Virus record (IMG/VR): IMGVR_UViG_3300049595_001759
Coordinates: 1 to 39,920 of that record
Length of the DNA stretch: 39,920 nt
DNA from: a virus
Reading direction: 5' to 3' (one strand)
Position 1 is the first letter of the stretch. The number at the start of each line of letters is the position of its first letter. The position numbers and the translations under genes were made by a program. Shown one piece after another: positions 6,114 through 39,920 of the stretch. Under the pieces are notes generated by a model. The model did no database searches and was not told where the DNA came from. It worked only from the letters and a program-made list of their open reading frames with translations.

Positions 6114-6167
6114 AAATTGTTTGTAGTGTGCAAATGCACTGGGCGCTATTGCAGGTTTTTACTTTTT
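6114..6167. repeat. Intergenic A-B repeat module
   Basis: Element A (AAATTGTTTGTAGTGTGC, 6114-6131) followed by motif B (6156-6167). It lies between the terminator at 6197 and the peptide gene at 5958, in a 276-base stretch that otherwise holds only the leader hairpin. Confidence 0.6.
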
Positions 6168-7528: not shown

Positions 7529-8095
7529 TTAAAAATGCTGCACATTTATATAGATAGGCGCACTTGTGTTAGGGTCAAGTTTGGCAGAGATAGTCAATGC
7601 TTGTCTGATTAGCGTCTTGGCAGTTGCCAGAGTCCTCTTTCTTGTTTCTAGAGTCCCCAGCAAAGCACCCAGAGCGTAAGCACTTCCAGAACCAATGGCA
7701 TAAACCCCACTCTCGTCCCGTGCCCACGAATAGTCGTTGCCAATCTCATAGACAGTTCCATTTATAAGAACCATCACTTGGCTATCTTGGTCGCCATCTT
7801 TTGAGTATGAGTTGTCCTCAAAGCATTTCTTCAGTTCAGGTATAAAAATGGCAGTCATAAACTTGTCGAGTTTAACTCCATAAGTTGTTGGTGTTATTGC
7901 AGGCGGCTTGAACACAAATGATAATAAGTTGATAGCCCTCATGTCGCCGGCTACCCCAATAAGGTATGCCCCGTTCTTAAATAACTTCCCATTATCTTTT
8001 GGAAGTGTGTAAATCTTTTCGTTTTCTTCAGTTACTCGTGAGTCATAACCAACGACAGCCCAGTTTTCACCCTGAACAGCAGCAATCGTAGTCAC
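7529..8095 (-). CDS. HslV / proteasome beta-like Ntn hydrolase
   Basis: A 188-residue protein with the N-terminal pattern of HslV and 20S beta subunits: MTTIAAV, where Thr2 would be the nucleophile after Met removal, then VGYDSRVT (Asp equivalent to the conserved Asp17), GKLFKNG (Lys near the conserved Lys33) and IGVAGD. The C-terminal half has VYAIGSGSAYALGALLG, the 'GSG' helix region of the fold. These enzymes cleave peptides in threaded chambers. No HslU or proteasomal ATPase neighbour is seen. The start is GTG with GAGGG upstream. It could be an inactive fold, but the key residues are present. Confidence 0.75.
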   Translation of the reverse strand: MTTIAAVQGENWAVVGYDSRVTEENEKIYTLPKDNGKLFKNGAYLIGVAGDMRAINLLSFVFKPPAITPTTYGVKLDKFMTAIFIPELKKCFEDNSYSKDGDQDSQVMVLINGTVYEIGNDYSWARDESGVYAIGSGSAYALGALLGTLETRKRTLATAKTLIRQALTISAKLDPNTSAPIYINVQHF

Positions 8096-24723: not shown

Positions 24724-25383
24724 TCAAACCTCGTAGACAGTTTCTTTATGGTGTTTTATCTTGACCAGAGGGTCTACAAAAATCTTAAAACCAGCCCTTG
24801 AAGCATTGGCACACCAAGAATAATCTTCCCCAACATTGACTTTCAGGTCAGGATTTAAGGGGCTCCATTGAACCCTGTTGATTAGAAACCAAGGTCTAGC
24901 CATCTTTTCAAAGACCCCAGCCTTGATAGCCACAAACCCAAACCCCACCCCACCGACCTCTACAGGGGCATCGTGGAGCAGGAACTCAACCTTATTGACC
25001 CTTGTTGGCGCCCCATACTCATTAGGGTAATTCACAGCCACAGTTCCAGCCCAGTCCAACTGATAAAGCCCAGAGACAATATCCAAATCACTTTCATACA
25101 ACTTTAGGAAGTCTTCAGGCTCCCATTCTATATCTGAATCAATCCAGATAATCTTTTTATAATCCCAGCCCCCAGCAACCGAAGTTGTTCCGAAGTCGTG
25201 TTGCGTGCTGTCTAAAGCAGTTAGTTCTCTGGCGGTTGGCACAAATGATGAATACTGCGAAATAAAGCGATATGTCAGCCCTCTTTCATCTAAGGCTTTA
25301 CAAGTCTTTACAAGGCTTTTTACATACTCCATTTTTGCTGAATGTCCAGGAGTTGCTATCAAAATGTCAGAGCGTGTTGTCAT
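24724..25383 (-). CDS. GT-A type glycosyltransferase
   Basis: A 219-residue protein. It begins ILIATPGHSAKMEYVKSLVK, a nucleotide-sugar-binding start, has the metal-binding DxD as WIDSDIEWEPEDF (about 95), VSGLY further on, and VGEDYSWCANASRAGF near the end, the acceptor-side loop typical of phage family-2-like enzymes. It would transfer a sugar to a phage component, a host glycan or modified DNA; the acceptor is not visible. A second enzyme of the same style is at 38344-39177. Confidence 0.75.
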   Translation of the reverse strand: MTTRSDILIATPGHSAKMEYVKSLVKTCKALDERGLTYRFISQYSSFVPTARELTALDSTQHDFGTTSVAGGWDYKKIIWIDSDIEWEPEDFLKLYESDLDIVSGLYQLDWAGTVAVNYPNEYGAPTRVNKVEFLLHDAPVEVGGVGFGFVAIKAGVFEKMARPWFLINRVQWSPLNPDLKVNVGEDYSWCANASRAGFKIFVDPLVKIKHHKETVYEV

Positions 25384-26498: not shown

Positions 26499-28541
26499 AT
26501 GTCTGTTTCATTTTCTTTCAAGTTGTCTGATGATTTCGTAGAGGGCTTCCGCAATAAAAAAGCACCATTTGGTTATCGTGATGCTGCTGGAAACTCTGTA
26601 GGAGAAATTACTTTTCTACGAACATATTCACGACTAAAAGAAGATGGACATAAAGAAACTTGGGTTGATGTATGCGAACGTGTTATCAACGGAATGTATT
26701 CATTACAGAAGGAACACGCTAAGAACAACCGTCTTCCTTGGTCTGACACTAAAGCAGCGGCTTCTGCTAAAGAAGCATTCGAGCGTTTGTTTGAGTTGAA
26801 GTGGTCTCCTCCAGGACGTGGTCTATGGGTTATGGGAACTCCAATTGTTAATACTCAACGCAACTCTGCTGCACTTCAAAATTGCGCATTTGTTTCAACA
26901 AAAGAAATGAGTAAGGCAGACCCATCAAAACCATTTACATTTTTAATGGAAGCATCAATGCTTGGCGTTGGTGTTGGATTTGATGACAAGGGTGCTGATA
27001 AAGAATTCCAAATCTATGAACCAGAAGGAGAAGAAACATATGTCGTCCCAGATACCAGAGAAGGTTGGGTCAAATCCCTCGAACTCATCATCAATGCTTA
27101 CCTACGACCAGATCAGAAGACTCCACTATTTGACTACTCAGAAGTCCGTCCAGAAGGCACCCCAATCAAAACCTTCGGAGGAACAGCAGCAGGACACCAA
27201 CCGTTAGAGCGTTTACACAATCACATTACTAAGTTGTTCGCAGGTCGCAAGGGAGAGAAAGTAACTCGCAGAGACATTGCTGACATTGGAAATATGATTG
27301 GCGTTTGCGTTGTATCAGGAAACGTTCGTCGTTCCGCAGAACTTCTTATTGGTCGCATTGATGACGAAGACTTTTTGAACTTGAAGAACGCAGAGATTTA
27401 TCCAGAGCGTAACTCTTATGACCCAGAAAATCCTGGCTGGGCTTGGATGTCTAACAATTCTGTAGAGGCTTACGTTGGCGCAAACCTTGACCCTATTGTT
27501 GAAGGTATTGCTCGCAACGGAGAACCTGGAGTTATTTGGCTAGATGTCTCTAGACAGTATGGACGTTTGGTTGACCCACCTAACAATAAAGATTATCGTG
27601 TAGAAGGTTATAACCCTTGCGCTGAGCAATCACTTGAGTCTTACGAAATGTGTACTCTTGTTGAAACATATCTCAACCGACACGAGTCACTGGAAGATTA
27701 CAAGCGCACTCTTAAGTTTGCTTATCTTTACGCAAAAACCGTGACACTTCTTCCTACCCACTGGGCAGAGACAAACGCAATTATGCAGCGTAACCGTCGC
27801 ATTGGAACTTCAATGTCAGGCGTAGCAAACTTTGCAGACAACCGTGGTCTTCCACTTCTTCGTGAATGGATGGACAAGGGATACGAGACAATTAAGTATT
27901 ACGACACTACTTATTCAGAATGGCTCGGAATCCGTGAATCTATCAAGACAACAACCATTAAGCCTTCTGGCACGGTTTCCATTCTTGCTGGTGAAAGTCC
28001 TGGCGTACATTGGACTCCTGGCGGTAAGTATTTTATGCGTACCATTCGCTTTGCTAATTCGGACCCTATGCTTCCCTTATTTAAGATGGCGAACTACAAA
28101 GTTGAACCAGCGTCGGAATCACCGAACACTACATCGGTTGTCTATTTTCCAATCAAGTCTGAGTCCAAGAGGGCTGAGAAGGATGTCTCAATCTACGAAA
28201 AGATGGCGTTAGCAGCATACGCACAACGCTATTGGTCAGATAACTCTGTCTCAGTAACTATCTCCTTTGACCCTGAAAAGGAAGCAAGCGCAGTCGGAAC
28301 TGTTCTCCATCTTTACGATGGTCAACTAAAAACAGTTTCATTCCTTCCATCAGGAAACTTTACATACCCACAGATGCCATACACACAAATCACTGAAGAA
28401 GAATATGAAGAAGAGGGAACTCTAAAACTCTTTCCAATTGACTTCTCAGGAGTTTATGCGGGACTTGCGGCTGATGCTATCGGTGAGGCATACTGCACTA
28501 CTGACGCTTGCGAGGTGAAACTTATTAGGGAAAACCAGTGA
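26499..28541 (+). CDS. nrdJ: Adenosylcobalamin-dependent (class II) ribonucleoside-triphosphate reductase
   Basis: A 680-residue monomer-type enzyme that reduces ribonucleotides using a thiyl radical made with adenosylcobalamin. Motifs: QNCAFVST (C129, active-site pair), FLMEASMLGVGVGFDD, NPCAEQSLE (C374 as the thiyl radical, with the Glu two on), TIKPSGTVSILAGESPGVHW (about 487), and a C-terminal CTTDAC (C666, C671) spaced like the swinging disulfide pair of Lactobacillus RTPR, which passes electrons from thioredoxin. Length fits the monomeric NrdJ. AGGGAG precedes the ATG. The stop overlaps the next gene as GTGA. Confidence 0.93.
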   Translation: MSVSFSFKLSDDFVEGFRNKKAPFGYRDAAGNSVGEITFLRTYSRLKEDGHKETWVDVCERVINGMYSLQKEHAKNNRLPWSDTKAAASAKEAFERLFELKWSPPGRGLWVMGTPIVNTQRNSAALQNCAFVSTKEMSKADPSKPFTFLMEASMLGVGVGFDDKGADKEFQIYEPEGEETYVVPDTREGWVKSLELIINAYLRPDQKTPLFDYSEVRPEGTPIKTFGGTAAGHQPLERLHNHITKLFAGRKGEKVTRRDIADIGNMIGVCVVSGNVRRSAELLIGRIDDEDFLNLKNAEIYPERNSYDPENPGWAWMSNNSVEAYVGANLDPIVEGIARNGEPGVIWLDVSRQYGRLVDPPNNKDYRVEGYNPCAEQSLESYEMCTLVETYLNRHESLEDYKRTLKFAYLYAKTVTLLPTHWAETNAIMQRNRRIGTSMSGVANFADNRGLPLLREWMDKGYETIKYYDTTYSEWLGIRESIKTTTIKPSGTVSILAGESPGVHWTPGGKYFMRTIRFANSDPMLPLFKMANYKVEPASESPNTTSVVYFPIKSESKRAEKDVSIYEKMALAAYAQRYWSDNSVSVTISFDPEKEASAVGTVLHLYDGQLKTVSFLPSGNFTYPQMPYTQITEEEYEEEGTLKLFPIDFSGVYAGLAADAIGEAYCTTDACEVKLIRENQ

Positions 28542-28990: not shown

Positions 28991-29112
28991 TGTTAAAAAC
29001 TAAAAGCAAGACTTCTGCTGAAATTATTCTTCAACTATCAATAACTTTGATTACTATGTATGTAGCCAACAAAATTACTGTAGATATTTGGCGCTCAATG
29101 ACAGGACACTGA
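28981..29112 (+). CDS. Small membrane protein of the cobalamin cassette
   Basis: A 43-residue protein with GGAG seven bases before its ATG, overlapping both neighbours. One helix (about 14-30, EIILQLSITLITMYVAN) is followed by a short polar tail. It is squeezed between the DUF4430 protein and the adenosyltransferase in three overlapping frames, so it probably belongs to the same function, such as a membrane partner; this is speculative. Confidence 0.6.
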   Translation: MALMLKTKSKTSAEIILQLSITLITMYVANKITVDIWRSMTGH

Positions 29113-29675
29113 TGGTCCACCTAACTCGAATTTATACAAAGACTGGCGATGACGGAACTACATCTCTAGGGGATATGAGTCGCACCTCAAAGAATGATCC
29201 TAGGCTAGAAGCCTTTGCCACAGTCGATGAGGCAAATTCTTATATTGGTGTATTGCTTTTAGATATAACAGATGAAGAAATAGAAAAACTATTGTTGATT
29301 GTTCAGAACAATATGTTTGATGTGGGGGCAGATTTATGCACTCCAGTTGTAGATAATCCAGAAGTAAAACCTCTTAGAGTTACCGAAGAACAAATTGCTT
29401 ACCTTGAGCAGCAAATAGATAAATACAATTCAAACTTGGAACCTCTTCATTCTTTTGTTTTACCTTCTGGCTCCCCTGCTTCCTCCCACCTTCATGTAGC
29501 AAGAACTATTGTTCGTCGAGCAGAAAGGCGTACATGGGGGGCTATAAGTAGTTTTGGAGAAGGGGTAAATCCTTTGACAGCAAAATACCTAAACAGGTTA
29601 TCTGACCTTCTCTTTGTTCTAGCCAGATATGAAAATAGAGAAAGTGGAGACCAATTATGGCTTCCAGGAAATTGA
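29112..29675 (+). CDS. pduO: PduO-type ATP:cob(I)alamin adenosyltransferase
   Basis: A 187-residue protein that would make adenosylcobalamin from cob(I)alamin and ATP. It has the ATP-binding N-terminus LTRIYTKTGDDGTTSLGDMS, then RLEAFATVDEANSYIGVLL, FVLPSGSPASSHLHVARTIV with RRAERR, and LNRLSDLLFVLARYENR, all signatures of PduO/MMAB. The length is normal for the stand-alone domain. The ATG at 29112 overlaps the previous stop (TGATG). A host-like metabolic enzyme next to a B12-dependent reductase gives it an obvious client. Confidence 0.92.
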   Translation: MVHLTRIYTKTGDDGTTSLGDMSRTSKNDPRLEAFATVDEANSYIGVLLLDITDEEIEKLLLIVQNNMFDVGADLCTPVVDNPEVKPLRVTEEQIAYLEQQIDKYNSNLEPLHSFVLPSGSPASSHLHVARTIVRRAERRTWGAISSFGEGVNPLTAKYLNRLSDLLFVLARYENRESGDQLWLPGN

Positions 29676-29684
29676 CTCTAACCC

Positions 29685-29693
29685 TGTTATACT
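29685..29693 (+). promoter_or_regulatory. Extended -10 promoter before the AdoMet decarboxylase-like gene
   Basis: TGTTATACT is an extended -10 (TG-n-TATACT) with a poor -35. It begins at the end of pduO and would give a leader of about 25 bases. Confidence 0.5.
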
Positions 29694-29724
29694 AAACTCA
29701 GACAAAACAAAGAGAGGCGGTACG

Positions 29725-30108
29725 ATGAGTATTGAGCATAAGCACATTCTTATCAATGCAAAAATCAATGACCCGTTAGAGACTTTTGATGATGCTATCA
29801 ATTTCCTAGAGGATTTAGTTGACAGAGTTGGTATGAAGATTTTGATGGGACCACACGCTACCTATGTAGACACCCCAGGAAACAAAGGCGTTACAGCGAT
29901 TGTTGGAATTGAGACCAGCCATATTGCTTTTCATATCTGGGATGAGGAAATGCCAGCAAGGCTTCAGTTCGACCTCTACACCTGCGGCTCATTGGATAAA
30001 GACATCGTGATTGAGGCAGTTAAAGAGCGCTTCCAAGTCGTCAGTGCGGACTATAGAATCTATGACAGAGAGCACGGTTTCGTTCTTCTAGAAGAAGGAA
30101 CTATCTAA
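29725..30108 (+). CDS. S-adenosylmethionine decarboxylase-like protein (SpeD/SpeH type)
   Basis: A 127-residue protein starting at ATG 29725. Characteristic parts are HKHILINAKI, GPHATYVDTPGNKGVTAIVG, SHIAFHIWDE (the Ser would be the cleavage and pyruvoyl residue) and LQFDLYTCG (the conserved Cys). The residue before the Ser is Thr, not the usual Glu, so self-processing may differ. The product, decarboxylated AdoMet, feeds polyamine synthesis, or the protein may serve another AdoMet use in the phage. No spermidine synthase is seen. Confidence 0.78.
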   Translation: MSIEHKHILINAKINDPLETFDDAINFLEDLVDRVGMKILMGPHATYVDTPGNKGVTAIVGIETSHIAFHIWDEEMPARLQFDLYTCGSLDKDIVIEAVKERFQVVSADYRIYDREHGFVLLEEGTI

Positions 30109-34021: not shown

Positions 34022-34798
34022 ATGTTCAAAGACACGTATAAAGGCATACCTGATTTTATAAAGGACTGTATGGAGTCCCTTATTGACAAGTCAGACCATT
34101 ACCATTACATAAACCACAAGCGTAGGTATGCACGAACAATTCAAGTACTTCTAGACCAACAACCATCAGGACGTTTATTAGAAATCGGAACCAGCAAACT
34201 TATCCCTAGAGCATTAAAAACTCTTGCTCCAGAGGTGGAAGTATCCGTTACCCATTTTGATTTAGATAGTCCAGAAGAAGGCACCATTGAGATAGATGGA
34301 GACTTTTTTCCCGCTTATTGCGTTGATTTAGAAAAGAAAGCGTTACCAGCACCTGATGACTATTTTGATTATATTCTCTGCTGTGAAGTTCTTGAGCACA
34401 TGGAGATTGACCCAATGTTTATGCTTTCAGAGATAAACCGTGTAATGAAGCCAGGAGGAACTCTTATTCTCACAACACCCAATGTTGTTAGTAGTAGAGG
34501 TCTAACAAAAATGCTTGCTGGCATAGAGCCATATTTTTATATGCAGTACAACATAAATGGAGATTACAACAGACATAACTATGAATACAGTGTTCATACT
34601 TTAGTAAGAGTTCTACAGGCAGCAGGGTTTGATGGCAGTCTGTGGACGGAGGATACCTTTGAAGATTCAATGCCTAATGTAGTAGATAGACTTACTAAAG
34701 CAGGATTCAATATTTCTCATGTCGGAGATAACATAATGAGCATTTCTAAAAAACAAGGACCTGTTTTTGATAGATACCCAGCGTGCCTATATGTCTAA
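34022..34798 (+). CDS. SAM-dependent class I methyltransferase
   Basis: A 258-residue protein with a class I (Methyltransf_11-like) core: motif I is GRLLEIGTSKLIPRALK (less canonical than E/DxGxGxG), then DLDSP, DYFDYILCCEVLEHMEIDPM and VMKPGGTLILTTPNVVSSRG. It has no ribosome site; transcription should start at the ATG. It overlaps the next gene by 8 bases; with the glycosidase-like neighbour a sugar-directed substrate is likely but not shown. Confidence 0.8.
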   Translation: MFKDTYKGIPDFIKDCMESLIDKSDHYHYINHKRRYARTIQVLLDQQPSGRLLEIGTSKLIPRALKTLAPEVEVSVTHFDLDSPEEGTIEIDGDFFPAYCVDLEKKALPAPDDYFDYILCCEVLEHMEIDPMFMLSEINRVMKPGGTLILTTPNVVSSRGLTKMLAGIEPYFYMQYNINGDYNRHNYEYSVHTLVRVLQAAGFDGSLWTEDTFEDSMPNVVDRLTKAGFNISHVGDNIMSISKKQGPVFDRYPACLYV

Positions 34799-35762
34799 AA
34801 AATACGACTACCAACCACGAGAACAAGATGTTCCCCTTATTACTGAGATTGGTGGAACAACTCATCAAATACGTCGCCTAGTAAACCCTGACGACCAACT
34901 CTGGTCTGCGACTAATCCTTCTATTGGCGTCTCTCCTAAAGGAAATTACGCAGTTATGTTGCGCTCTAGTAACTATGTAATTATGCCTACTGGAGAATAT
35001 AGAGTCACAACCAATGGAACTATTCGCTCAACTGTCTGGTTTTCAGAGTTAGATAAAGATTTTATGATTAAAGAACTAAAACAAGTAGATGTCTCAGACC
35101 TTGGAGTAAAGATTGAAAGAGGACTAGAAGACCCTAAACTTTTCTGGCGTGATGGCTCTTGGCACTTTACCTGTGTAACTATGGAAAAAGACCACACACC
35201 TATTGCTCGTATGGCTACTTGCCGTCTTGATACTAAAAAGATGAAAGCCTTTGATTTTGTAAAGTATCCAGGTATAGACCAGAAGCGCCCTGAGAAAAAC
35301 TGGTCTGTCCCTTACGAACCTAATCCAAATTTTGATTTTATCTATGGCCCTAACGCAACTATAAAAAACAATGTTCTAACTACTCATATGACAGAAAATG
35401 AAAACATCTCTGCTCTAAGAGGCAACACAAATCTTGTTAAGTTAGATGATGGAACCTATCTAGGAGTTGTTCATAGAATGTTTGGAAAGGCAGAAACAAT
35501 ATGGGTACAACAGACTTTTGGAACAGTTAACGGATACATTAGAAGATATGTACACTACTTTGCTCAGTATGACAACTATGGAAAAATTATTGCCATATCT
35601 AAAGGATTTAACTTCTTTCACAGTGGAGTGGAGTTTGCTGCTGGTCTTGTAGAGCATAAAAAAGACCTGCTCATTTCGTGGGGAAAGAAAGACATTTCAT
35701 CACATATTGCCTCTATCCCAAAAGCAACAGTTCTCAAATCACTACTACCACTTGAATACTAA
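34791..35762 (+). CDS. GH130/GH43-like beta-propeller glycosidase or phosphorylase
   Basis: A 323-residue protein with repeats of the five-bladed propeller: WSATNPSIGVSPKGNYAVML, ERGLEDPKLFWRDGSWHFTC (catalytic-type Glu-Asp), EKNWSVPYEPN, NTNLVKLDDGTYLGVVHRM and SGVEFAAGLVEHKKDLLISW with GKKD. This resembles GH130 mannoside phosphorylases and related proteins encoded beside glycosyltransferases. I chose ATG 34791, which overlaps the methyltransferase stop. Confidence 0.75.
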   Translation: MSKKYDYQPREQDVPLITEIGGTTHQIRRLVNPDDQLWSATNPSIGVSPKGNYAVMLRSSNYVIMPTGEYRVTTNGTIRSTVWFSELDKDFMIKELKQVDVSDLGVKIERGLEDPKLFWRDGSWHFTCVTMEKDHTPIARMATCRLDTKKMKAFDFVKYPGIDQKRPEKNWSVPYEPNPNFDFIYGPNATIKNNVLTTHMTENENISALRGNTNLVKLDDGTYLGVVHRMFGKAETIWVQQTFGTVNGYIRRYVHYFAQYDNYGKIIAISKGFNFFHSGVEFAAGLVEHKKDLLISWGKKDISSHIASIPKATVLKSLLPLEY

Positions 35763-35771
35763 AATTTACAT

Positions 35772-36014
35772 ATGAGCGAAACTGTCTACGACACCGAAAC
35801 AAACACTCGTCTGTCACATGAAAGCGGTGATCACGACAGGTTTGCTCACTATGTTGAAAAAGGAGAAGTAACAGAGGCTTTGGTAAATGGGTGGCCTGTT
35901 ATTGCTCTCTGTGGAAAAGTATGGGTTCCCTCCCGCGACCCTAAGAAGTATCCAGTGTGCCCTACCTGTAAAGATATACACGCTGAGATGGGAGATGTTA
36001 GTGGGAGTGATTGA
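35772..36014 (+). CDS. DUF3039-like actinobacterial protein
   Basis: An 80-residue protein: GDHDRFAHYVEKGEVTEALV, VIALCGKVWVPSRDPKKYPV and CPTCKDIH match the actinobacterial DUF3039 family, with a C...CxxC zinc-like set. It is among the best host-lineage markers in the window. Confidence 0.85.
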   Translation: MSETVYDTETNTRLSHESGDHDRFAHYVEKGEVTEALVNGWPVIALCGKVWVPSRDPKKYPVCPTCKDIHAEMGDVSGSD

Positions 36015-36225
36015 TGAAACAAATAAAATTCTTACAGCCTTAGACCGTTGCGATAGGTGCATCGCTCAGGCGTACTACATGGTTGCCTTAAAAAACGGAG
36101 ACCTGTATTTCTGTCGTCATCATTTTGCTAGGTATGAAGATGACCTTATGGATATTGCTATAGATATTTATGACGAATCAGATAGTCTAGAAACTAAACA
36201 AGAACCAGTTTTGGATAAGGCATAG
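36001..36225 (+). CDS. DUF7455-like actinobacterial zinc protein
   Basis: A 74-residue protein. LTALDRCDRCIAQAYYMVAL, YFCRHHFARYEDDL and AIDIYDESDSL match the actinobacterial DUF7455 family (CxxC plus CxHH). The start is GTG 36001 with GGGAG six bases above (ATG 35995 possible). It overlaps the previous gene by 14 bases and its end converges with the Mom-like gene. Confidence 0.8.
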   Translation: MGVIDETNKILTALDRCDRCIAQAYYMVALKNGDLYFCRHHFARYEDDLMDIAIDIYDESDSLETKQEPVLDKA

Positions 36226-36829
36226 TTTTATATCTAAGTTTGTTTAGTAACTCTTTCTTTCTTCGCTTGTCGCAGTTAAAGTATATGTATCTATGCTTAC
36301 GAGGTCTTTCAACAAAAGTAACATTCTCTGCCCCAAACTTCTCAACAACTTGAGCATTGGTCAATCCGTTTGCGTATGTAGCGTGGTGCATATTTTCTTT
36401 GCCAACAACCTTAGGGTCCTTAAACTTTGCCGATAGCCCTGTATAAATAAAGTTTGCTGCTTGATAGATATAGCCAACGTGCCCCTGAGACGTATCAGCA
36501 AAGGAAACAATAATCTCTCTGTCTAATAACTTCATAGAGTTAGCCACTAAGTAACTTTCTCCATTTTTAGCAACCTTATCGTCAACCCACAAACGATTTA
36601 GTTCATAGACATTTCGTGCTTCTTCTGGACCACAGATTCCTTTGAGCAGCGTAGAAGAAGGGCTGACTCCATAAGTAACAACTCCCACCACCTCCCCACT
36701 TTGTATATCAATCAATCCATACGCATGGGACACAGGGCATTTTCTATGTAGGTAGTGTTTTTCAACAACAATATCCATAGCCTCTTTGTAAGAGATAGGC
36801 TTTATAGAATATGTTTCTTTAAGACTCAT
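36194..36829 (-). CDS. Mom-like DNA base modification protein
   Basis: A 211-residue protein with the acetyltransferase-like Mom family pattern: AMDIVVEKHYLHRKCPVSHA, VVGVVTYGVSPSSTLLKGIC, YELNRLWVDD, ADTSQGHVGYIYQAANFIYT and the ending RKHRYIYFNCDKRRKKELLN, LRYKTMPYPK. Phage Mu Mom modifies adenines to block restriction. I chose ATG 36829, which overlaps the methyltransferase end by 11 bases. It is thus probably co-expressed with the DNA methyltransferase. Confidence 0.82.
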   Translation of the reverse strand: MSLKETYSIKPISYKEAMDIVVEKHYLHRKCPVSHAYGLIDIQSGEVVGVVTYGVSPSSTLLKGICGPEEARNVYELNRLWVDDKVAKNGESYLVANSMKLLDREIIVSFADTSQGHVGYIYQAANFIYTGLSAKFKDPKVVGKENMHHATYANGLTNAQVVEKFGAENVTFVERPRKHRYIYFNCDKRRKKELLNKLRYKTMPYPKLVLV

Positions 36830-38186
36830 CTTCAGCCAGAACCGCTTTGATTCTCGCTTCAGCAAGAGCAACATACTCTTCGCTCATTTCAATTCCAAGA
36901 AAGTTGAAGTTATCTAGAACCGCTGCTTTGCCAGTAGAGCCTGACCCAGTAAATGGGTCAAGCACTGTTCCACCAACAGGTGTAACCATTTTTACGAGAT
37001 AGCGCATAAGCGCTGTTGGCTTTACTGTTGGATGATTATTTTTCCGAAGGTTAACGCCACGATTGCGAGGATTATCGCCACCAGGATTGCCTTCTTTACG
37101 AGAGTCATCAGTCTTTTTCGGTTCAAAATCTTCTAGTCCCTCATTTCTATCTTTAGAGTTTGCCTTAGCACAGTAGAAGAAACGAGCAGCAGAGCCGTCA
37201 TCTCCCATAACTCTTGCTTGGTTTGGTTTGTCTTTATGTGTTCCACCATCAGCAAAAGCACCGATGTCGCTACTACCACGCTTAGAAGGATAAACTCCGC
37301 CTTTAGAACGAGGAAACAGTTCAACAACTTCTTCGTCCCCATCGTGAATAAAGTTTGCTGGAAATCTTCCTTTGTTATTTATTTCTTGCTCATACTCTGG
37401 CTCAACTTTTTGTCCAAAGCCAGACCACTCTTCTAACTTGTTGACAGGAATGGCTTCTCCAGGAACTCGTGATTCATCAATGTTGATGCCACCAACCCCC
37501 CACTTGAGGATGTTGTTTATAACAGTTCCATCTAAAGGCTTTCGTGCCATAACAATTGGCTCGTGGGCTGGCTTGAGTGCGGTGCCCCAACCTTCCCATT
37601 TCTTCGCATCTTCTGTTGTTGGCTTCGTTATGTAATCTGTTTTTCCAACTATTCCTGTTTCAAAAAGGGTATCGTCTTTTGAAGAATTTTCTCTACTGTT
37701 TGGATTTCTACCAACAACTTCTGGTTCTGCGCCAAACTTCTTGTCTATTGCTTTGTCAATTGCCATTGACTTAGGAAACCCTGAGCCATAAACCCACATA
37801 ATTTGGTCTCGGATTTCAAAGTTAGCCTCTTCAATGGCACAAGCCATACGGTGATATGTTCGTGAACCGCCAAAAACTAATATGTATCCGCCAGGCTTTA
37901 AAACTCTATAGACTTCTTTAGCCCACTCTGTAGACCACTTTTGAAACTCCTGCATTTCAAATAGACCACGAGAGAATCTAATTCCGTGATTAAAGCCTTT
38001 ATCGTGAAAAATTCCGTTTGTTGATTTGTCAGTTACACTAACAACTTCCGAGTTCTTCCAAGGAGCGTCCCACTCTTTTCCCATAAACTCAAGACCGTAT
38101 GGCGGGTCTGTAACCACAGAATCAACACTATTTTCTGGAAGAGTCTTTAGGACCTCGATGCAGTTTCCTTGAAGAATATTGTACAT
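36819..38186 (-). CDS. DNA adenine or cytosine-N4 methyltransferase (beta type)
   Basis: A 455-residue protein with DPPYGLEFMGKEWDAPW (catalytic, D27-Y30) near the N-terminus, VLKPGGYILVFGGSRTYHRM, WVYGSGFPKSMAIDKAIDKK, and the AdoMet motif DPFTGSGSTGKAA at about 410, followed by FLGIEMSEEYVALAEARI. The DPPY-before-FxGxG order places it in the beta group. Base specificity (N6-A or N4-C) cannot be read here. No restriction partner is seen, so a protective role is likely. Confidence 0.9.
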   Translation of the reverse strand: MYNILQGNCIEVLKTLPENSVDSVVTDPPYGLEFMGKEWDAPWKNSEVVSVTDKSTNGIFHDKGFNHGIRFSRGLFEMQEFQKWSTEWAKEVYRVLKPGGYILVFGGSRTYHRMACAIEEANFEIRDQIMWVYGSGFPKSMAIDKAIDKKFGAEPEVVGRNPNSRENSSKDDTLFETGIVGKTDYITKPTTEDAKKWEGWGTALKPAHEPIVMARKPLDGTVINNILKWGVGGINIDESRVPGEAIPVNKLEEWSGFGQKVEPEYEQEINNKGRFPANFIHDGDEEVVELFPRSKGGVYPSKRGSSDIGAFADGGTHKDKPNQARVMGDDGSAARFFYCAKANSKDRNEGLEDFEPKKTDDSRKEGNPGGDNPRNRGVNLRKNNHPTVKPTALMRYLVKMVTPVGGTVLDPFTGSGSTGKAAVLDNFNFLGIEMSEEYVALAEARIKAVLAEDES

Positions 38187-38237
38187 AACCGAATCTTAAC
38201 AAAGGTTGGTGCCTTTGCTGTATCGACACGCTTAACC

Positions 38238-38360
38238 CTAAAGTTTATTCATCAACCACACAAAGACGTAGACAGCAACAACCCTTATAAAAACTCTTCC
38301 AGCAGCAGCGCCTATAGAGGTTTCTTCTTCAGAGTCTTGGTCTTTACTTTGGCTTGACAA
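38238..38360 (-). CDS. Small membrane peptide
   Basis: A 40-residue frame from TTG 38360, with GGAAG upstream, overlapping the glycosyltransferase end by 17 bases. A polar acidic start (SSQSKDQDSEEETS) is followed by one hydrophobic helix (RVFIRVVAVYVFVWLM). Short and with a rare start, so moderate support. Confidence 0.45.
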   Translation of the reverse strand: MSSQSKDQDSEEETSIGAAAGRVFIRVVAVYVFVWLMNKL

Positions 38361-39177
38361 TACTTCTTCCCACAAACGTGTAGGAGCCAATATGACTAAG
38401 AGTGGTGTTCACATCTAAGTAAATCTTTCCACCTAACTCTTGCCATCTGCGACAAAAGGTGTAGTCCTCACTGAGGTAGCGCTTATCAGAGTCAATCATT
38501 GTGTCAAAGAGCGCATAGCGCTTTCTTTTTTCTAGTTGTTCTGTCATATCCTTATCACTGTAATACATTGTGTCTGGATAGGCTTCCATCATTTTTTCAA
38601 GAACATGACGCTTCATCAACATAAAACCAGTTCCAGCATCATAAACTTCTAAAAGACCGTTTTTGACTTGAACATCTACTTGCTTTCCCACCATTTCTGG
38701 ATCTGGCTTGTGGACATTGATTACATACATTGCTGCCTCTACAGCAGCATCTTGAGCAGTAAATTCGGAATAGTCATATCTAGACTTATCTACTACAGAT
38801 TCCCAATTCAAAGTCTTGAGTGGGTATGCCCCAACAACAACATCTTGGTCAGCAAGTAGCATACGAACAACTGATTTAGGGTCAAACTTAATATCTGCGT
38901 CAATAAACATCATATGTGTGGCTTTAGTGTTTTGTAGGAAAGCATGAACAAGTTCATTTCGTGCTCTTGTTACAAGGCTTTCATTAGCAATAGTTGCGTA
39001 TCCAACGCCAATTCCATATTGAGCACAAACGCCAGAAAGAGTAAACATCGCTTGTGCGTACGCTTCAGTAACTACTCCGCCATAACAAGGAGTACAAATA
39101 ATAAGAGTTACGTCTTTTAGTTTTTCAAAACGTGGGTCTTGGGGCTTGTCTTGGTCTTTAGTTTGTTTTTTCACCAT
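38344..39177 (-). CDS. GT-A type glycosyltransferase
   Basis: A 277-residue protein from ATG 39177 (a TTG at 39201 is less likely). LIICTPCYGGVVTEAYAQAM, TRARNELVHAFLQNTKATHM, FIDADIKFDPKSVVRML (DxD metal site), VVGAYPLKTLNWE, YDAGTGFMLMKRHVLEKMM and YLSEDYTFCRRWQELGGKIY are typical of phage-encoded glycosyltransferases. It may act on modified DNA, given the neighbours, or on surface glycans. Confidence 0.78.
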   Translation of the reverse strand: MVKKQTKDQDKPQDPRFEKLKDVTLIICTPCYGGVVTEAYAQAMFTLSGVCAQYGIGVGYATIANESLVTRARNELVHAFLQNTKATHMMFIDADIKFDPKSVVRMLLADQDVVVGAYPLKTLNWESVVDKSRYDYSEFTAQDAAVEAAMYVINVHKPDPEMVGKQVDVQVKNGLLEVYDAGTGFMLMKRHVLEKMMEAYPDTMYYSDKDMTEQLEKRKRYALFDTMIDSDKRYLSEDYTFCRRWQELGGKIYLDVNTTLSHIGSYTFVGRSIVKPK

Positions 39178-39286
39178 AAGTAAAACTTTAGCAGGTAGCA
39201 ATAAAAAATGCTATGCCAGAGTATGCGTGTCTATTACAAAAATACAAATCTATGTTAGGCATAAAAAGTCAGGAAAGTACCCTGGT

Positions 39287-39315
39287 TTGCCTAATTTGTA
39301 AAGTGCCTGTACTCT
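39287..39315 (+). promoter_or_regulatory. Promoter of the right-end HTH gene
   Basis: TTGCCT (39287-39292), 17 bp spacer, TACTCT (39310-39315). The operator-like word GTCAGGAAAG lies just upstream at 39269-39278. Confidence 0.6.
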
Positions 39316-39346
39316 TACATCTATGACAACAAACGAAAGGAACACA

Positions 39347-39920
39347 GTGACAAGTACTTATGTAAAAGTTAATCATAAGTTGCCTCAGGAAGTAGTTGAC
39401 GCTTTTACTAAAATTGGCGAAGACACCCTAAAGCGCAATGCTTATATTCGACTTCTTAGAAAAAATGAATGGAGCCTTCAGTCTATTGCTGACGCAGTAG
39501 GAGGGTTGACTCGTGAACGAATTCGTCAAATTGTCGTTGGTTCATATGATGGGTCAGATACAGCAGAGAGTTTAATTTCTTCTTCTGAATTTATTGTTCC
39601 AAACCCACCATTGAAGCCAGTAAAAGAGCCAAAGGTATATGTAGAACCATCAGCCGAGACTCTCCAAAAACTACTTGAACTACAACCTCTTGCTCAGCAG
39701 GTTCGCTCGCACTCTCCTAAGTTTCGTAAAGAAGCCGAGGAATATACAGCGTTGCTCAACCATGCTTATAAAGTTGAAGGCGTGAGTCTTTATAGACTTG
39801 CTAAACGACTTGGAGTTACTCACGGCTCACTACGATTCCGTATGGCTCGTTATGGATACCTAACAGGTCATAAATCAAACAGCACTTGCTATCGACCAAT
39901 CTTGGAGAAGAATAGATATG
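39347..39920 (+). CDS. HTH DNA-binding protein, truncated by the window edge
   Basis: At least 191 residues, running off the right end. HTH-like segments are NEWSLQSIADAVGGLTRERI (about 46) and SLYRLAKRLGVTHGSLRFRM (about 147). Its C-terminal half matches the protein at 501-1166: LQPLAQQVRSHSPKFRKEAE against LQPYAQQVRANSPRFRAEAE, and both end RYGY...KN. I chose GTG 39347, with GAAAGG six bases above; an in-frame ATG at 39323 at the transcript's predicted start is possible. Confidence 0.75.
   Translation, partial: MTSTYVKVNHKLPQEVVDAFTKIGEDTLKRNAYIRLLRKNEWSLQSIADAVGGLTRERIRQIVVGSYDGSDTAESLISSSEFIVPNPPLKPVKEPKVYVEPSAETLQKLLELQPLAQQVRSHSPKFRKEAEEYTALLNHAYKVEGVSLYRLAKRLGVTHGSLRFRMARYGYLTGHKSNSTCYRPILEKNRY

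Follow-up and report, generated by a model that had tools for sequence, protein, structure and literature searches.

The window, which here means the whole analysed stretch of 39,920 bp (a virus record representing a freshwater-type phage fragment), contains overlapping genes for a Mom-family DNA-modification protein and a DNA methyltransferase. In our reading, which draws on sequence comparison and is likely correct, these would provide two parallel adenine modifications against restriction, the adjacent glycosyltransferase gene being an unrelated neighbour. The locus comprises the following features:

35772-36014, plus strand: gene for a DUF3039 protein (PF11238, 1.6e-28), conserved flank of the Mom locus.
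35995-36225, plus strand: gene for a small DUF7455 protein (PF24254, 1.5e-21), conserved flank with the same arrangement in relatives.
36194-36829, minus strand: gene for Mom (211 aa), assigned to the GNAT-fold adenine-N6 modifying (methylcarbamoylase) family by PF25680, phrog_1384 and the Mu Mom structure 8bv8.
36819-36829, minus strand: 11-bp overlap of the methyltransferase stop and the Mom start, as given by the ORF coordinates.
36819-38186, minus strand: gene for a predicted beta-class N6/N4 DNA methyltransferase (455 aa), assigned by PF01555, similarity to CcrM, and motifs.
38344-39177, minus strand: gene for a predicted GT-A glycosyltransferase of the phrog_1574 family, with a DAD motif at residues 93-95; the acceptor is probably not DNA.
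39323-39919, plus strand: gene for an HTH protein, cut by the window end, conserved flank on the opposite side.

The minus-strand genes are transcribed in the order glycosyltransferase, methyltransferase, Mom. Their coordinates agree with the original prediction, as do the Mom-like and DNA methyltransferase identities, which were confirmed by Pfam, PHROGs and solved-structure matches; matches of all three genes to their families are far beyond chance. The predicted overlap of 11 bases is exact: Mom starts (ATG) at 36829 and the methyltransferase gene stops at 36819. In addition, the glycosyltransferase gene (ATG at 39177, possible alternative TTG start at 39201) indeed lies upstream of the pair, separated from the methyltransferase gene by 157 bp. 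The DUF7455 gene is convergent with Mom and overlaps its 3' end; together, the DUF3039 and DUF7455 genes may point to an actinobacterial host. Promoter and terminator scans of the region yielded matches no more numerous than in shuffled sequences, no inverted repeats were found in 36000-39920, and PADLOC reported nothing for Mom or the glycosyltransferase and only generic methyltransferase models for the methyltransferase.

The methyltransferase matches N6_N4_Mtase (PF01555, 9e-39) and phrog_67 (4.9e-85). In METHYLTRANSFERASE, DPPY is found at residue 27 and FTGSG at residue 412; this order, with DPPY motif IV before FxGxG motif I, and the N6_N4_Mtase domain are shared with CcrM and the beta-class phage methyltransferases of phrog_67, and the protein can be assigned to the beta class of amino-methyltransferases, from which it differs in having a long central region between the motifs. 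CcrM is the nearest solved relative (6pbd, 6.8e-23) and also the nearest NCBIfam model, with a score far under the model cut-off. The DPPY motif and the similarity to CcrM favour N6 of adenine as the most likely target, but N4-cytosine enzymes match too. No cognate restriction enzyme was recognised near the methyltransferase gene.

Mom matches PF25680 (Pfam) over positions 2-202 of 202 with E=1.1e-42 and 146.4 bits against a cut-off of 27.1, and phrog_1384 (PHROGs, 'Mom-like DNA modification protein') with 2.3e-51. Mu Mom (8bv8, 'Methylcarbamoylase mom') was found at full length (E 7.4e-20) by a profile from 14 relatives. The predicted model of the window protein is of moderate quality (pLDDT 70.6); its best Foldseek match is also 8bv8 (E 4e-9, TM 0.54), followed by GNAT acyltransferases, and a GNAT fold like that of Mu Mom is predicted for it. 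The 8bv8 entry represents an inactive S124A mutant of Mu Mom: S124, whose replacement by Ala inactivates the Mu protein, aligns with S92 of the window Mom, while H58-Y59 of SfMu Mom (HY motif) align with H25-Y26. All three residues (S92, H25 and Y26) are invariant in 10 aligned Mom members from Mu-like, Listeria, ICP1, Roseobacter, Microbacterium and other phages. Likeness to Mu Mom (8bv8; PF25680) extends, then, to full-length homology, a GNAT-type fold, the catalytic serine, the HY motif and an overlap with the upstream gene; however, the window Mom is only ~29% identical to SfMu Mom, and, unlike the com-mom operon of Mu (cf. SfMu com-mom), the overlapping upstream gene is that of the DNA methyltransferase, not com. 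A com gene overlapping the Mom start is absent at the window locus; the DUF7455 gene was considered as a Com-like candidate and rejected, as it is convergent with Mom and carries a DUF7455 domain. In cultured phages Mom occurs without an adjacent methyltransferase or glycosyltransferase: near DNA polymerase I in the Microbacterium phage Cassita, and beside a VRR-nuclease and a helicase in the Roseobacter phage CRP-902. Two loci from a different background (L095:8001-9489 and L096:8001-9488) contain two tandem Mom-family genes, the second being 21-23% identical to the window Mom.

Sixteen syntenic loci of uncultured related phages were compared (L081, L002, L082-L093, L097 and L105), of which L081 is identical to the window at this locus, while L084 and L085 may be one phage, so that not all 16 are independent. 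Mom is present in all 16, before the same convergent DUF7455/DUF3039 flank, although most of the loci were collected by a Mom search, so that its constancy is in part a product of the selection; L106 and L107, which were found by means of the methyltransferase, serve as an independent check. In most loci, a mannosyltransferase-like gene and a gene for a SAM methyltransferase come next after the flank. The DNA methyltransferase adjoins Mom in five loci (L081, L002, L082, L092 and L105), and the glycosyltransferase adjoins the pair in all of these but L105 (4/16). Of the remaining loci, L088 and L090 have a PnuC-like membrane gene in the place before Mom, L083, L091, L093 and L097 a small gene of unknown type, and L084, L086 and L087 a variable stretch that includes tail-type genes. 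The overlap of 11 bp recurs between the methyltransferase and Mom genes in L105, and between the PnuC-like and Mom genes in L088 and L090. In L106, a second N6_N4 methyltransferase is found in the Mom position, between the same methyltransferase and DUF7455/DUF3039, and the 11-bp overlap (6139-6149) is retained between the two methyltransferase genes; no Mom was found in the L106 record. Because of this substitution with the same overlap, the Mom position between the HTH gene and DUF7455/DUF3039 may be read as an exchangeable slot for DNA-modification genes. Moreover, the replacement of Mom in place by a second methyltransferase gives support, of a purely positional kind, to phage Mom relatives doing a methyltransferase-like job. 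The trio appears to have some stability, as the glycosyltransferase still adjoins the pair in L092, with all three proteins diverged to ~69-79% identity. The complete lake actinophage DSL-LC01 has the SAM methyltransferase and mannosyltransferase-like genes of the flank in common with the window; neither Mom nor phrog_1574 was matched in it by the searches that succeeded in the window and its relatives.

Under the preferred reading, Mom would add a bulky acetamide-type (methylcarbamoyl) group to N6 of many phage adenines, and the sites so modified would not be recognised by host restriction enzymes; the overlapping methyltransferase, most likely a site-specific N6-adenine enzyme, would independently protect its own target sequence. 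Both proteins may be translated together, forming a small anti-restriction cassette in the exchangeable slot, and the glycosyltransferase would be separate cargo, most likely directed at a glycan of the virion or of a surface. Should the methyltransferase be an adenine enzyme, both marks would involve the same N6 atom, and they would therefore be alternatives at different sites rather than layers. The comparison establishes which families the genes belong to, that two of them overlap, that the catalytic serine is conserved, that the synteny is modular and that the genes are under purifying selection; the enzyme activities and the anti-restriction function are those expected from family membership, and we infer the N6 target of the methyltransferase, the coupled translation and the acceptor of the glycosyltransferase.

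The glycosyltransferase matches phrog_1574 (4e-44) and, slightly below the Pfam cut-off, Anp1 (6.7e-6). The DxD motif D93-A-D95 and RYLSEDYTFCRRWQ are invariant in 25 aligned relatives, and the predicted model (pLDDT 77.7) matches GT-A enzymes in Foldseek (E 6e-7), which supports a GT-A fold. Among the fold matches are the LH3 structure, one of whose domains is a glycosyltransferase, STIV A197 and the capsid glycosyltransferase of PBCV-1; the named matches are protein, lipid or capsid glycosyltransferases, not DNA glucosyltransferases. Neither sequence comparison nor the 50 best Foldseek matches yielded a known DNA glycosyltransferase (T4 or base-J type). With at least 597 matches, the family is very frequent among viral contigs. 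The window protein shares full-length homology, the DxD motif and RYLSEDYTFCRRWQ with phrog_1574 GT-A enzymes of pelagiphages, cyanophages and the phiM12 group, but only in the window's lineage does the gene stand beside Mom and this methyltransferase. A second phrog_1574 glycosyltransferase is encoded in the window at 24724-25383 (minus strand), away from the Mom-methyltransferase pair.

It had also been proposed that the modification may help to escape restriction or CRISPR and may be layered, the glycosyltransferase adding a sugar to a modified phage base on top of methylation and the Mom modification. An anti-restriction role is most likely for Mom and the methyltransferase, whereas the part assigned to the glycosyltransferase was not supported, and layering of this kind is very unlikely. 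It would be consistent with the same-strand adjacency of the genes, with its 157-bp gap, which is kept in L092, and with the T4-like phages phiM12 and Cr30, where a glycosyltransferase relative is found among replication genes and a DNA role for it is conceivable. However, in a neighbourhood survey of 79 loci clustered around the glycosyltransferase, Mom or this methyltransferase was found nearby in four, all belonging to the window's lineage, and the gene was uncoupled from both in 75; 38 of the 79 have another glycosyltransferase gene at a distance of at most 1.5 kb. In relatives of the phage, the gene is separated from Mom and belongs to clusters of tail-fibre genes or of several glycosyltransferases: in a 101.6-kb relative with Mom (L007 and L085 are its parts), it lies ~45 kb from Mom in a run of glycosyltransferase genes after large repetitive genes; in L106, beyond the HTH gene and next to a gene matching tail-fibre assembly; and in L005, close after a tail-fibre-like gene.

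The known DNA glucosyltransferases act on a hydroxymethyl group, in the case of the T4 alpha and beta enzymes that of 5-hydroxymethylcytosine, and neither N6-methyladenine nor the adenine product of Mom offers such a group. The T4 enzymes are likewise phage-encoded glycosyltransferases, but they show no sequence or fold match to the window protein, and neither a gene for 5-hydroxymethylcytosine synthesis nor any other enzyme making a glycosylatable base was found in the partial records searched. In particular, a thymidylate-synthase-type hydroxymethylase (PF00303) is absent from 12 related partial records, in a search whose controls worked, and no Tet/JBP was seen in a search without a positive control. 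DNA glycosylation by this enzyme is unsupported by family neighbourhoods, fold and the hydroxymethylase search, and the specific claim that a GT-A enzyme of PHROG 1574 adds sugar to a modified base of the DNA, in addition to Mom and methylation, is highly doubtful; if true, it would imply a DNA-modifying role for a large unassigned family and a new layered modification. The locus is a caution against taking a neighbouring phage glycosyltransferase for a DNA glycosyltransferase. Beyond the window end, an overlapping contig (L001, 3283-3954) contains a sugar-nucleotidyltransferase-like gene, a weak match that is in keeping with a glycan pathway. A search of a limited literature collection retrieved reviews of Mom systems and no paper on Mom with a glycosyltransferase.

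It is quite improbable that the methyltransferase is regulatory, its methylation controlling expression of Mom or other phage genes. The direct overlap of the methyltransferase and Mom genes would suit such control, and a parallel exists in phage Mu, where host Dam methylation permits mom transcription (PMC10434257); however, Mom lacks an adjacent methyltransferase in 11 of the 16 syntenic loci, several such records (G002, G004, G005) show no methyltransferase at all, and no com gene precedes the window Mom.

Purifying selection acts on all three genes: dN/dS estimated by the Nei-Gojobori method against L082 was ~0.04 (Mom), ~0.11 (methyltransferase) and ~0.12 (glycosyltransferase), and against L092 all three values were well below 1, with synonymous sites near saturation. 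A fortuitous grouping of decayed cargo genes that no longer function, in line with the variable gene content at this spot among relatives, is exceedingly improbable in view of the full-length frames, the conserved catalytic motifs and dN/dS of ~0.04-0.12.

With Mom and the methyltransferase as the anti-restriction pair, the locus is an ordinary but well-supported case of known anti-restriction genes. Its contribution is a clear-cut pairing of Mom with a methyltransferase, in an uncultured, actinophage-like lineage that swaps the genes next to Mom.

Several other genes of the window were noted. The phage encodes both a B12-dependent ribonucleotide reductase (26499-28541, plus strand) and a PduO-type cobalamin adenosyltransferase (29088-29675, plus strand; PF01923, 6.2e-62; TIGR00636, 1.8e-53); the adenosyltransferase has no PHROGs family match and is also carried by the relatives L084, L085 and L092. 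A phage-supplied B12 cofactor enzyme for the phage's own ribonucleotide reductase would be noteworthy. The end of the adenosyltransferase gene is overlapped by an S-adenosylmethionine decarboxylase-like gene (29629-30108, plus strand), conserved in relatives. At 34022-35762 (plus strand), a SAM methyltransferase gene overlaps the gene after it, which has no match in Pfam or PHROGs and whose homologue in DSL-LC01 is annotated as beta-mannosyltransferase; these two genes are conserved as a pair among relatives. The two ends of the window each encode an HTH protein (501-1166 and 39323-39919, both plus strand); these are paralogues with 43% identity. Finally, an HslV/proteasome-like peptidase gene is located at 7529-8095 (minus strand), and L001 and L092 carry a related copy close to the Mom locus, past the end of the window.
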